From positions 1,674,001 through 1,738,000 of the forward strand of contig NZ_LS974202.1 of the NCBI RefSeq assembly GCF_900157305.1: 64,000 nucleotides of DNA, given 5' to 3'. Origin of the DNA: Mesotoga infera. Lineage in GTDB: Bacteria > Thermotogota > Thermotogae > Petrotogales > Kosmotogaceae. The position numbers and the translations under genes are program-made. The notes under the pieces are model-generated. The model ran no database searches and was not told the DNA's origin. It worked only from the letters and a program-made list of their open reading frames with translations. This document shows, one piece after another, positions 40,700 to 47,333 of the stretch (within the stretch, counting starts at the first letter, position 1; every line of letters starts with the position of its first letter).

Positions 40700-40851
40700 G
40701 AGAAACACCTCCTGTCAGGATTTATCATAAAATCCTCATTGAAAATGGACATTAGCATTATAATATGCGTACTGTTAAATTTATACTTGTTCATAGATTT
40801 TTGAACTTTTTCAGCGAAACATCCCGGTGATTTGAGTTTTTGGGGGTTGAG

Positions 40852-42780
40852 ATGCAATTAATCTTCATTGTTCCCGCAATAACAATATTGGTATTTATAG
40901 GGTTTCTGCCGATCTTCACGGCCTTTTCCGACGCTATGACAATAAATGGAATACCGAGCTTTTTGAACTTCCAGTACATATTTCAGGATCAAGATTTCAT
41001 GTACAGCCTGAAGATTTCACTAGTTTGGGCCCTTTTAAACACCCTGCTCTCGCTCTCGCTGGGTTTTTTGATAGCCCATCACCTTAACAGGGCTAGAAGA
41101 TGGCGATTGATATACCTGGCGCTTCTGGTTCCGTGGGGACTTCCGGTCTATATAGGTGTACCGATATGGAGGGCCATCGTGCACGGAGGAGGCGGCACTT
41201 CGATACTAAACCTGATTGGCATCGATATAAATCTTCTCACCGACCCTATAGCGTCGTTTCTAGCCGCCCTCTTTGTCAGTGTTTGGTTCAGCCTGCCGCT
41301 GACCGTCTTCGTTCTCTGGGATTCGATGGCCACTGTTCAAAACAGTCTTATAGATGTCGCGAAGATCGACGGCGGAAGCCTGTCAACCGTGCTTTTCAGT
41401 ATTTATCTCCCCATGATGAAGCCGGCCCTGATAACCATGTTTACGATCAACTTCATAAAGTTCTTGAAGGAGTTCACGGTGGTTTTTCTCATGACCGACG
41501 GAGGCCCTCCACTTCTGTCAGGCTTCACAAAGAGGAGCATAATTGGTGCCACTACAACACTGGATATATTTATTTACGGCATTTTCACCGGTCGAAGTTC
41601 AACGGGCATCGCCTCGGCTTACTCGGTTTTGACGCTTCTGATGGTAGCCTTTGTGATGATTCTCTGGTTTCTGTCCAGCAGGGTCGAGCTGAACGCTCAC
41701 CTTCTAATCATACTTGTGGTTGCCTCGCAGACAACGCTCGGCGGTTATGTAGGTCTCTTCTTCGGAGGTCTGTACCTCCTGTCTATATGGAAGAAGGGAT
41801 TGTTCAAATATATAGTAATCGGCGATATCGCAGCCTGCCTTTTGCTCAGTTTGTTCAACGGATTCCTCCGAGGCTTCAACGCGGCCACGATAATCTCTCT
41901 GATAGTCTTTCTGATACTCAGAAGGGAGAAGGGTAGTACAACCGTTGTAAAAAGGGGCGAAAGGGTTCTGAAACTTCTCACCAGGATCGTTCTGGCGGGC
42001 GTACTGATCGCCTCCGTCCTTCCCCTTTTCGTTCTGTTCTGGATAAGCCTATCAGGACTTTCGACAACTTACATGGACACATTTCTCCCCAGATATTTCA
42101 CTCTGGATAATTTCGTGAGGGTGGTAGGAGAGGAAGGAATAATCACAACTCTTCTAAACACCCTTTTCGTTTCTCTCGTTACTGGACTGGCCGTGCCTTT
42201 ACTCACATTTCAGTTTGCCCTCACCTTGAGGAAGCTCAGAAACTCGCTCTCGGACATCGTAGTTGTCATATTGAACATCGTGGGCGTGATAGGTGGTATG
42301 CACACACTGGTTCCATTGTACTCCATATTCAGATCACTGGGAATGATAGACAGCTATTTTCCGGTGATACTGGTTTATATCTCCCACGCTATACCATTTT
42401 CGGTTTTCACCATAAGAACCTACCTAGAATCCGTGCCAGAGAGTCTGGAGGATCAGGCGAGGATCGACGGAGTTGGAACGGTCTCCTTTGGTTTCAGGAT
42501 ACTCCTGCCCCTATCCAGACCGGTGCTGACGACCTCGTTCATAGTGGCCTTCATCGGCGCTTGGAACGGTTTCCTGGCACCGCTTCTATTCCTACTGAGC
42601 GATAGTAAATACACGATGGGAGTCAAGCTCTACACGTATGTCGGCAGTCTCGGTTCTGGTAATCCTCAGTGGAACATATTCGGTGCGGCTTCCATAATAA
42701 ACTTGCTAGTTATGGGTGTTGTATTCTATACTTTTAAAGGATATCTTGGTAAGACTCCGTTATCGGAAAATTATGAATAA
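40852..42780 (+). CDS. Fused sugar-type ABC permease (MalF- and MalG-like halves in one chain)
   Basis: The 642-residue protein contains two complete binding-protein-dependent permeases. The first (about 1-280) has an EAA loop DVAKIDGGSLSTVLFSIYLP near 168-190, and the second (about 370-642) has DQARIDGVGTVSFGFRILLP near 534-553. Between them lies an extra stretch with about three hydrophobic segments (residues 285-360). Normally these are separate proteins. ATG at 40852 follows GGGGGTTGAG. The binding-protein gene is downstream, but no ATPase gene is in the operon, so a shared ATPase such as a MsmK/UgpC-type one elsewhere is expected. The sugar is unknown. Confidence 0.88.
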   Translation: MQLIFIVPAITILVFIGFLPIFTAFSDAMTINGIPSFLNFQYIFQDQDFMYSLKISLVWALLNTLLSLSLGFLIAHHLNRARRWRLIYLALLVPWGLPVYIGVPIWRAIVHGGGGTSILNLIGIDINLLTDPIASFLAALFVSVWFSLPLTVFVLWDSMATVQNSLIDVAKIDGGSLSTVLFSIYLPMMKPALITMFTINFIKFLKEFTVVFLMTDGGPPLLSGFTKRSIIGATTTLDIFIYGIFTGRSSTGIASAYSVLTLLMVAFVMILWFLSSRVELNAHLLIILVVASQTTLGGYVGLFFGGLYLLSIWKKGLFKYIVIGDIAACLLLSLFNGFLRGFNAATIISLIVFLILRREKGSTTVVKRGERVLKLLTRIVLAGVLIASVLPLFVLFWISLSGLSTTYMDTFLPRYFTLDNFVRVVGEEGIITTLLNTLFVSLVTGLAVPLLTFQFALTLRKLRNSLSDIVVVILNIVGVIGGMHTLVPLYSIFRSLGMIDSYFPVILVYISHAIPFSVFTIRTYLESVPESLEDQARIDGVGTVSFGFRILLPLSRPVLTTSFIVAFIGAWNGFLAPLLFLLSDSKYTMGVKLYTYVGSLGSGNPQWNIFGAASIINLLVMGVVFYTFKGYLGKTPLSENYE

Positions 42781-42889
42781 TCCTCCGAGCATTTCCTCCT
42801 GAAAGGATTTTGCTGCCTCCCTTGGAGAAATGCCGATAGGGTGTGACTGGAAACGGTCATGCCTCCCGTGCTTGGAAAGGAGGTATATT

Positions 42890-44284
42890 TTGAAACTTCG
42901 CGAACTGACGGTCCTGTTGTGGCTTTTGATTACTCTGTCCTGCCTGTCTTTCGAAGTGTTGCTGAACGACGAGTTGATCAGGAGCTGGGACGGCTCGCTC
43001 CTACAGTACTGCTATGACCTTCCCGAAGGAAAAGCAATACCGCTTTTTGAGATTCTCCCGCCGGTTGTCGAAAGAGAGAGGTTTCTTGTGGAAACCGAAA
43101 GGGGTCAGTTTTCGGACGTACCGACAGACTCGCTTCTCGTGTGGAAGGGCGGCGACTGGTTTCTCCATCTGGAAGGAGAAAGTCTAAAGATACTTTCCGT
43201 GATCGTTTATGGCGAACCCATCGATAACGATTACCTGCAGGTTTGGCTTGATTGGGAGGGCATAAAAGCCCTCAAAGAGTCTATCGAGAGATTCTCCTCT
43301 ATCAACGGTCTGAGAATCGAAACCCGGGAAGTCCCGAAGGCTTCAAGTAAACTCATCTCACTTGTCAGGGCTCGTGGCGAAGTTCCAGATGTGATCATGG
43401 TTCAGTCGAGCGATATTCCGGGACTGGTATATGAGGAGGTCATTCAATCTCTCGATTATATTCCCACACATGGTCTATCTGGTCTATCTTCGTTCAACTA
43501 TGAAGGGAGATTGTGGGCCATCCCCTTCTATTTCGATTGTCAGCTGGTGTTCTACAACCGTGAACTCGTGGGGGAAATCGATCCCGAATGGACGCTCCAA
43601 GATCTCGAGAATATTTCAAAAAATCCCGCGAGCGGTGGAGCCGGCTGGAATATTTATTCGGCCTACTGGTTTATCCCTTTCCAGCTAGGATTTGGCAAAA
43701 AAGATCTGATCGAGGAAGGGAGAGTTACGGTTCTAGATAGCTCCACGCAAGAGGCGCTCGACTATCTGGTCGAGAAGGTCAATGATGGCACCTTCAGAGC
43801 TCTCGAGCGAGACCCGATGATAAGTCTCTTCGCTTCGGGAAAGGTCGGGATAATACTATCTGGTTCCTACATGATAGAGCAGTTCGAGAAAATAGGTATA
43901 GATTTCGGGCTGGCTCCCTATCCCGAACCTTTGAGGCCCGTTCTGGACTACAAGGGTCTTGCGATAACCTCAAAGACTCGCAACCCCATCCTGGCCAGAA
44001 GACTGATAGAGTTTCTCACATCGAAGTACGTGCAGGCGAGCTTCTGCAAGGCTTCCTACAAGATCCCCTCGAGAAAGGAAGCGCTTGATTGGTTGGAGCT
44101 GAACTTTGCTATATCCAGCAGCCTTGAGAGAGGCTACCCGCTGCCGGCCGATACTCTGTACGAACTCTACAAAGACACTATGTGGAAACTGATAAGGCTG
44201 GCCATATCCGACAGACTGGGAGTGAGAGAAGTGCTGGAACAGGGGCAGAAAACCATAGACGAAAATTCAAGGGGTGTTCAATGA
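42890..44284 (+). CDS. Sugar-type extracellular solute-binding protein with extra N-terminal domain
   Basis: The 464-residue product has an N-terminal signal (LLWLLITLSCLSFE) and then about 90 residues that are not part of the usual fold. The family 1 binding-protein core follows (ALKESIERFSSINGLRIETRE, DVIMVQSSDIPGL, WAIPFYFDCQLVFYNREL, GKVGIILSGSYMIEQFEK). The TTG start at 42890 was chosen because AAAGGAGG lies 8 bases upstream. It works with the fused permease encoded just before. The N-terminal region has a short FEVLLNDE start and an IPLFEILP segment, and it resembles the small gene that follows. The ligand is unknown. Confidence 0.85.
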   Translation: MKLRELTVLLWLLITLSCLSFEVLLNDELIRSWDGSLLQYCYDLPEGKAIPLFEILPPVVERERFLVETERGQFSDVPTDSLLVWKGGDWFLHLEGESLKILSVIVYGEPIDNDYLQVWLDWEGIKALKESIERFSSINGLRIETREVPKASSKLISLVRARGEVPDVIMVQSSDIPGLVYEEVIQSLDYIPTHGLSGLSSFNYEGRLWAIPFYFDCQLVFYNRELVGEIDPEWTLQDLENISKNPASGGAGWNIYSAYWFIPFQLGFGKKDLIEEGRVTVLDSSTQEALDYLVEKVNDGTFRALERDPMISLFASGKVGIILSGSYMIEQFEKIGIDFGLAPYPEPLRPVLDYKGLAITSKTRNPILARRLIEFLTSKYVQASFCKASYKIPSRKEALDWLELNFAISSSLERGYPLPADTLYELYKDTMWKLIRLAISDRLGVREVLEQGQKTIDENSRGVQ

Positions 44285-44702
44285 AAAGTCTGCTCACGAT
44301 AATATTCGTGTTGCTGACTGCGATCACTTCGATAGCCGGTATTACCGTTGCCTACAACGATTCGACCTTCGTCTTCGATAGCGGCAATTTTCCCTCGCTG
44401 AGAGCTGTGATCCTTTTCGAAGGAATACAACCCCGTTCGCGTACAGAAATGACCGTGATTAAACCGAATACGAAGCGATTTCTCTGATCTCCGTCAAAGG
44501 ATGTGTCGGTGGTATTAGAGAAGAGAACCTGCTGAAAGTAGAGGTCGATGACGTATATTCGAAAGTCTCCCCCTTCGGCGCCATCTATGGTAAAAAGGTT
44601 CTGGGCAATCCATGGAGATTTGGGAATGCCTGCAATAGGAAGCCATTGATCGGCGAAGATGGTAAAGTTCATCTAGGATCGGCATGGAATGAACACAAAT
44701 AG
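44281..44702 (+). pseudogene. Frameshifted small secreted protein of the fused-permease operon
   Basis: ATG at 44281 overlaps the binding-protein stop (ATGA) and opens a signal peptide (MKSLLTIIFVLLTAITSIAG). The frame stops at 44487. A second frame, offset by one base, continues from about 44463 as TEYEAISLISVKGCVGG and runs to TAG ending at 44702. One missing A in TTAAACC near 44461 would join the two into about 140 residues. The start (ITVAYNDSTF...VILFEGI) resembles the extra N-terminal domain of the preceding binding protein. It could be a true pseudogene or a base error in the assembly. Confidence 0.6.
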
Positions 44703-46484: not shown

Positions 46485-47333
46485 ATGAGCGACAGGAAGG
46501 GAGTACTGACCGAAATCTTCAAAGTAAATAAACCAATTATTGGAATGGTCCATCTCAGACCCTTGCCAGGTTCTCCCGGCTACGATCCGTCGATCATGGG
46601 AATGAAGGAGATAACCAGAATCGCTCTCGAGGAGGCGCGGATACTTGAGGACAACGGCGTTGACGGAGTGCAGGTCGAAAACATATGGGACTTTCCTTAC
46701 CTGAAGGGAGAAAGGATCGGTCCGGAAACTGCCTCGGCCCTTGGGGTTGTTGCCGCCAGAGTTGGGGAGGCTGTCGGGATTCCCGTCGGGGTGGACTGCC
46801 ATCTCAATGGGGGTAGGATAGCTCTTGCGGCGGCCATCGCTTCGGGTGCCAGATGGATAAGAGTCTTCGAATGGGTGAACGCTTACATCTCGCATGCCGG
46901 GCTCACCGAAGGAATAGGTGGGGAGTTGGCCAGGTACAGGCACTCGCTCAGGGCCGACGACATCAAATTCATGTGCGACGTCAACGTAAAGCACGGAAGC
47001 CATTTCATCGTATCCGACAGGACAATCGAAGAACAGGCGCAAGATGCAGAGTCGGAGGGAGCGGAGATTCTTATCGTCACGGGATTTGAAACCGGAAAGG
47101 CTCCAACTCCTGAAAAGGTGAAGAGGTTCTCGGAAAGTGTGAAAGTACCGGTGATAATTGGCAGCGGGCTGACGGAGGATAATGCCTCAGAACTCCTATC
47201 TTTCGCCGACGGTGCGATAGTAGGAAGTTTTTTTAAAGAGGAAAACAACTGGAAGAATCCCGTGGATGGTAAGAGAGTCGGGAGTTTCATGAAAAAGATT
47301 CGTTCTCTGAGAAGGGAGCTTTCGGATGATTGA
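46485..47333 (+). CDS. BtpA/SgcQ family TIM-barrel protein
   Basis: The 282-residue product matches the BtpA family: MVHLRPLPGSPGYD near residue 22, DNGVDGVQVENIWDFPY, PVGVDCHLNG, IRVFEWVNAYISHAG, VTGFETGKAPTPEKV and ADGAIVGSFFKEENN. The fold is a phosphate-binding TIM barrel, shared with SgcQ. BtpA was named for photosystem I assembly in cyanobacteria, but in other bacteria these genes travel with sugar transport and kinase genes. A role in a sugar-phosphate or nucleoside step is therefore likely here. RBS GGGAGGTGG precedes ATG. It overlaps rbsK by 8 bases. Confidence 0.88.
   Translation: MSDRKGVLTEIFKVNKPIIGMVHLRPLPGSPGYDPSIMGMKEITRIALEEARILEDNGVDGVQVENIWDFPYLKGERIGPETASALGVVAARVGEAVGIPVGVDCHLNGGRIALAAAIASGARWIRVFEWVNAYISHAGLTEGIGGELARYRHSLRADDIKFMCDVNVKHGSHFIVSDRTIEEQAQDAESEGAEILIVTGFETGKAPTPEKVKRFSESVKVPVIIGSGLTEDNASELLSFADGAIVGSFFKEENNWKNPVDGKRVGSFMKKIRSLRRELSDD

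Follow-up and report, generated by a model that had tools for sequence, protein, structure and literature searches.

The window analysed here, a 64,000-nucleotide stretch of the Mesotoga infera genome, contains an open reading frame that appears to join a MalF-like and a MalG-like ABC importer permease through an additional hydrophobic segment. The locus raises the questions of whether this fusion is real, what the joining segment is and whether the segment has a function of its own.

A single-chain permease of the MalF/MalG type

The open reading frame comprises 642 codons with no internal stops (Table 1). We placed its start at the ATG at 40852, which has GGGGG upstream; translation could also begin at a TTG at 40840. 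Pfam recognised BPD_transp_1 in two stretches of the protein, and NCBIfam matched the N-terminal half (approximately residues 15–282) to MalF, UgpA and GlcT and the C-terminal half (approximately residues 376–635) to GlcU, MalG and UgpE, all below the equivalog cut-offs. By sequence, the nearest solved proteins in the PDB were MalF and SugA for the first half and SugB, AlgM2 and MalG for the second. Each half carries one EAA loop, as judged from the sequence and alignment A1, and some members of clades B and C have degenerate loops. These matches bear out the initial annotation, which had proposed a MalF-like and MalG-like fusion with an EAA loop in each half: both permease domains lie in a single chain, not in two separate polypeptides.

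Table 1. Features of the fused permease and the genes downstream of it, in window coordinates.
Feature	Coordinates	Strand	Basis
Fused ABC importer permease, 642 aa	40852..42780	+	ORF reading, NCBIfam, Pfam, orthologues
MalF-like half, residues 1–276	40852..41679	+	NCBIfam MalF/UgpA/GlcT; PDB MalF/SugA over 37–278
EAA loop of the MalF-like half, ~residues 164–193 (NSLIDVAKIDGG...)	41341..41430	+	Sequence; D173 and G174 conserved in alignment A1
Membrane linker, residues 277–374, ~98 residues	41680..41973	+	Alignments, hydropathy, structure predictions; no Pfam match above cut-off
Predicted linker helix 1, residues 282–296	41695..41739	+	Both predictions
Predicted linker helix 2, residues 298–311, invariant Tyr308	41743..41784	+	Both predictions, conservation
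Predicted linker helix 3, residues 317–336, Asp/Glu325 in 23/25 linker-bearing proteins	41800..41859	+	Both predictions, conservation
Predicted linker helix 4, residues 344–357; conserved motif nGF..GFnPa just before	41881..41922	+	Predictions, alignment
MalG-like half, residues 375–642	41974..42777	+	NCBIfam GlcU/MalG/UgpE; PDB SugB/MalG
EAA loop of the MalG-like half, ~residues 530–559 (ESLEDQARIDGVG...)	42439..42528	+	Sequence inspection; alignment A1
Substrate-binding protein SBP_bac_8, MalE-like, N-terminal extension	42890..44284	+	Pfam, homologue comparison
PF00174-domain gene remnant, truncated and frameshifted	44281..44690	+	DNA alignment with two sister genomes; Pfam of the intact homologue

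An artificial joining of two adjacent permease genes by a sequencing or assembly error would produce the same picture, and malF and malG are usually adjacent in bacteria. However, the source genome assembled as a single contig of 2.97 Mb, and in-frame orthologues occur in several genomes: two from the same genus carry full-length fused proteins at 68% and 63% identity, and a third, at 89% identity, is interrupted only by an unread run of bases in its assembly. A paralogous fused permease also lies elsewhere in the M. infera genome (G000:C1:2911563–2913404) and is conserved through the family, and homologous linkers are found in other families. The orthologues and the single contig rule out the sequencing error that had been named as a possible cause, and we give an artificial join virtually no chance.

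Fused permeases as such are known, including FbpB, ThiP and PhnU-type proteins. The closest sequence relatives of both halves are MalFGK2/CUT1 importers (MalF/MalG, SugA/SugB and AlgM1/AlgM2), with which the window system shares two EAA loops and a MalE-like binding protein; a MalK-type ATPase is encoded in the genome. MalFGK2 has two separate permeases, whereas the window system has one chain with a predicted four-helix linker and no adjacent ATPase gene. In structural comparison, the whole model aligned end to end with a fused FbpB (9j4r, Thermus thermophilus FbpBC; 629 columns, TM 0.69 on the target), and no other match covered almost all of the model; MalG and SugB matched one half. This FbpB/SfuB-type ferric permease likewise has both pore halves in one polypeptide, but it belongs to a 491-residue class, shares 16% identity with the window permease in the structural alignment and, from its length in that match and general knowledge, presumably has no long membrane linker; FbpB/ThiP-type permeases are not known to carry an extra membrane domain between their halves. 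FbpB was absent from the PDB sequence matches to the window permease, the best of which were MalG, SugB and MalF, and we saw no sequence affinity to ferric or thiamine permeases of the FbpB/ThiP type. The PhnU2-type fused 2-aminoethylphosphonate permease (TIGR03262) matched one half at 31.6 bits against a cut-off of 593. What is unusual is the four-helix linker together with the affinity to MalF and MalG, not the fusion itself. The combination had been called rare; the protein is not an isolated case, since it belongs to a family that is conserved and has a second, paralogous member in this genome. The fusion had also been thought to fix the subunit ratio; a 1:1 ratio follows logically, but it explains little because MalF:MalG stoichiometry is already 1:1.

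The membrane linker and the family that carries it

The linker is longer than the 80 or so residues originally given for it, at about 98, and its own hydrophobic helices were recovered in two independent predictions, contrary to the helix-free linker that would have spoken against the initial annotation. A whole-chain AlphaFold2 model (19-row alignment, pLDDT 77, pTM 0.78) placed helices at residues 282–296, 298–310, 317–336 and 345–356, with pLDDT mostly 83–91 over this block. The linker folded alone on its own 20-row alignment (pLDDT 78, pTM 0.60) gave the same four helices, at 282–296, 298–311, 317–336 and 344–361, and the peaks of alignment-averaged hydropathy agree with them. The C-terminal end of MalF and the N-terminal start of MalG are both cytoplasmic in the established topology of the family, so the linker needs an even number of crossings. 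Four crossings, arranged as two hairpins, are most likely the best fit to the models, although helices 1 and 2 are only 13–15 residues long and may form a re-entrant hairpin instead of two full crossings. Consistent with cytoplasmic loops, Lys/Arg is fixed at position 315 and enriched at 357–359 in the linker alignment.

Across linker-bearing proteins, identity to the window linker ranges from 18 to 49%. Tyr308, Lys/Arg315 and Gly337 are nevertheless present in all 25 of these proteins, and Asp/Glu325, which is buried, in 23; Gly337 also aligns in relatives with a short linker, but the alignment is unreliable there. Comparison of the window sequence with its 89% relative gave a dN/dS of 0.16 for the linker helices (bootstrap 0.07–0.32; Fisher p 7e-7), 0.05 for residues 190–276 and 0.114 for the second half. 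Purifying selection thus maintains the linker helices.

Searches for a counterpart of the linker in known domains and structures gave only one meaningless weak match below the cut-off in Pfam and nothing below E 3.9 in a Foldseek search of the PDB. A linker profile had no matches in the sampled unfused MalF and MalG proteins or in either half of the fused proteins, and it lent no support to the idea that the linker is a remnant of the extra N-terminal helices of MalF.

A search for other proteins with this linker, suggested by the initial annotation, was productive. The profile matched 27 of 103 Thermotogota genomes, always within open reading frames of 463–695 residues that are fused permeases or contig-end fragments, and in these 103 genomes it found the linker in no other kind of protein. 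Divergent linker-bearing copies occur in two more families (L107–L110). Scanning 84,980 species genomes with a whole-protein alignment added fused permeases from spirochaetes, and the membrane linker is present in two of them, from Spirochaetales (L042) and Sphaerochaeta (L045). The survey count for Spirochaetota, 1 of 247, is a lower bound, with four candidates per genome scored under a strict cut-off. Four fused relatives, one from a Thermotogota genome (L033, genome G039) and three from spirochaetes (L044, L046 and Treponema L055), are 38–40% identical to the window permease over the whole chain and have the same partners, an extended binding protein and a PF00174 protein, but 27–70 hydrophilic residues replace the membrane linker. 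Remote matches in marine archaea, Chloroflexi and Halanaerobiales proved to be separate MalF and MalG reading frames. In a spirochaete metagenome-assembled genome, L048:4379–5437 is an apparent truncated copy of the fused permease whose second half has 52% identity.

We compared 29 fused proteins with nine unfused pairs in a tree of the two permease halves, excluding the linker. All 29 sampled fused proteins formed one clade with support of 100, in a tree that has several long branches and a small outgroup, and the short-linker proteins were nested inside it. A topology with all linker-bearing proteins as a separate clade was rejected (p 0.0009), whereas a single loss was not (p 0.10). One fusion with the linker, followed by one or two losses, is the simplest account of these sequences, and the linker looks ancestral. 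It belongs to a family, present in Thermotogota and in a small number of spirochaetes, that seems not to have been described before; the open-licence papers searched gave no account of a MalF/MalG-type fusion carrying a linker of this kind.

Partner genes and candidate substrates

The gene next to the permease encodes a binding protein that matches SBP_bac_8 at 79.7 bits (cut-off 27), for which we preferred a TTG start with AAGGAGG upstream over the ATG at 42830. Its N-terminal extension of approximately 85–100 residues is shared with spirochaete homologues and absent in clades B and C; it has no Pfam match, and a resemblance to the PF00174 protein's repeats is possible. In relatives, a third operon gene with PF00174 domains (sulfite-oxidase-type fold) lies intact beside the binding protein. 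A cluster of proteins that travel with the fused permease (c29; L022, L033, L042, L044–L046 and L055) is extracytoplasmic, with several sulfite-oxidase-type-like repeats; three of its members contain CVSCH, a CxxCH haem-type motif, as well as conserved stretches of the YAPHKQ kind.

No ATPase gene adjoins the fused permease at any copy. One candidate for a linked ATPase, cluster c7, proved to be a binding protein, and the RbsA-type ATPase found in clade B is accompanied by BMP-type permeases of its own. The M. infera genome encodes one OB_MalK ATPase against 38 SBP_bac_8 matches. This ATPase is a solitary gene (L093:6044–7180; G000:C1 about 2434000) beside metK and an rnf-like cluster, unlinked to the permease, and four other TOBE_2 ATPases in the genome each adjoin their own permease gene. 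The sole OB_MalK ATPase is probably common to most CUT1-type importers of the genome. In Anaerocellum bescii, one ATPase has been documented to serve many CUT1 importers, and the same is stated of the MalE system of T. maritima (PMC11212667).

The neighbourhoods of the fused permease differ by clade, and the substrates may vary with them, but a common theme runs through the neighbouring genes. Clade B copies lie near an adenine deaminase (above the cut-off) and a BMP-type nucleoside-like importer, and clade C copies near xanthine-dehydrogenase-like (XDH) subunits and an adenine deaminase (also above the cut-off). The window copy neighbours a ribose-type operon with a LacI regulator, RbsD, a pfkB kinase and RbsA-like genes, and two spirochaete copies have inosine-uridine nucleoside hydrolases nearby. 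These neighbourhoods tentatively suggest a purine, nucleoside or ribose-type compound as the substrate, an assignment that has a reasonable chance but may well be wrong. Import of a metal or oxyanion such as molybdate, and not of an organic nutrient, is a weaker rival. Molybdoenzyme-related neighbours recur (the XDH subunits, a MobA-like transferase, the PF00174 protein and a DUF364/DUF4213 protein), and a molybdate-permease profile gave a weak match, at 69 bits against a cut-off of 210. However, the binding protein is a MalE-like SBP_bac_8, the closest relatives of the permease are sugar permeases, and purine breakdown explains XDH and adenine deaminase more simply, which makes an oxyanion substrate improbable.

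Several other genes accompany the permease. The ribose-type operon includes a BtpA-family protein at 46485–47333 of the window. SIR2-like (SIR2_2) genes directly adjoin the fused permease in separate clades (L022:4036–6138, L024:6683–8296 and L027:9107–10720; identified by Pfam in L022 and L027 and by similarity in L024) and may represent defence genes at an insertion hotspot. At L030, L031 and L037, a DUF364/DUF4213 gene of approximately 250 codons (putative heavy-metal chelation) lies directly 3' of the clade C fused permease, and a similar-looking gene follows the permease at L110.

Proposed role of the linker

We consider it reasonably probable that the protein is the single-chain pore of a MalFGK2-type importer that uses the shared OB_MalK ATPase and the adjacent binding protein, with the linker as an assembly or stability module. 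The MalF-like and MalG-like halves would pair within one polypeptide as the translocation pore of a type I ABC importer. A dimer of the genome's only MalK-type ATPase would bind to their two EAA loops, and the binding protein from the next gene would deliver the substrate. The linker, which would leave the first half and enter the second on the cytoplasmic side, would most likely cross the membrane four times, with the nGF..GFnPa motif outside and the conserved basic residues inside. It would most likely be a membrane-embedded module packed against the pore, because it is kept by purifying selection yet replaced by a hydrophilic tether in some relatives. Within this picture, the computations show the fusion, the two permease domains, the four predicted helices and the conservation, ancestry and loss of the linker, and from these the sharing of the ATPase, the exact topology, the role of the linker and the substrate are inferred.

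The linker had been suggested to have its own function, a suggestion in keeping with the selection on its helices and the near-invariant polar residues; the four relatives with a hydrophilic stretch instead indicate that any such function is not required for every transporter of this kind. That some residues are invariant may point beyond a purely structural role. A functional domain, for example a regulatory or substrate-handling membrane module akin to additional helices in other importers, with Asp/Glu325, Tyr308 and Lys/Arg315 as a putative working site, would account for their retention in linkers of such low overall identity, since hydrophobicity would be all that a bare tether requires. 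Yet the same residues may do no more than keep the helices in contact, and a dedicated domain fits less well with the four losses, the missing Pfam and PDB counterparts and an evolution faster than that of either half; we regard it as unlikely, although worth keeping in view. Its fuller form, an undescribed four-helix domain whose own conserved putative site (Tyr308, Lys/Arg315, Asp/Glu325 and nGF..GFnPa) regulates or couples a one-chain importer, acquired in one event together with the fusion and dropped afterwards by some lineages, seems to us rather unlikely. At the other extreme, the linker could be a neutral remnant of the fusion event that persists only because its crossings, being even in number, do no harm. 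It is indeed more divergent than the halves (49% versus 70–73% identity to the 68% orthologue), it was lost in two lineages, and its tail (approximately residues 358–376) appears unconstrained, with a dN/dS of about 2 that rests on very few changes. However, the constraint on the helices and the persistence of homologous linkers across divergent families and two phyla make neutrality very improbable.

If the preferred reading of the linker as an assembly or stability module is correct, the family offers a naturally occurring one-chain MalFG whose membrane module is both conserved and removable, and its members with and without the linker form a natural test of the role of this module. The covalently fixed heterodimer would also be a handy tool for dissecting each half of a type I importer. 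For Thermotogota, it would represent a candidate family of importers for purines, nucleosides or ribose, whose members probably carry nothing more specific than a generic permease annotation.
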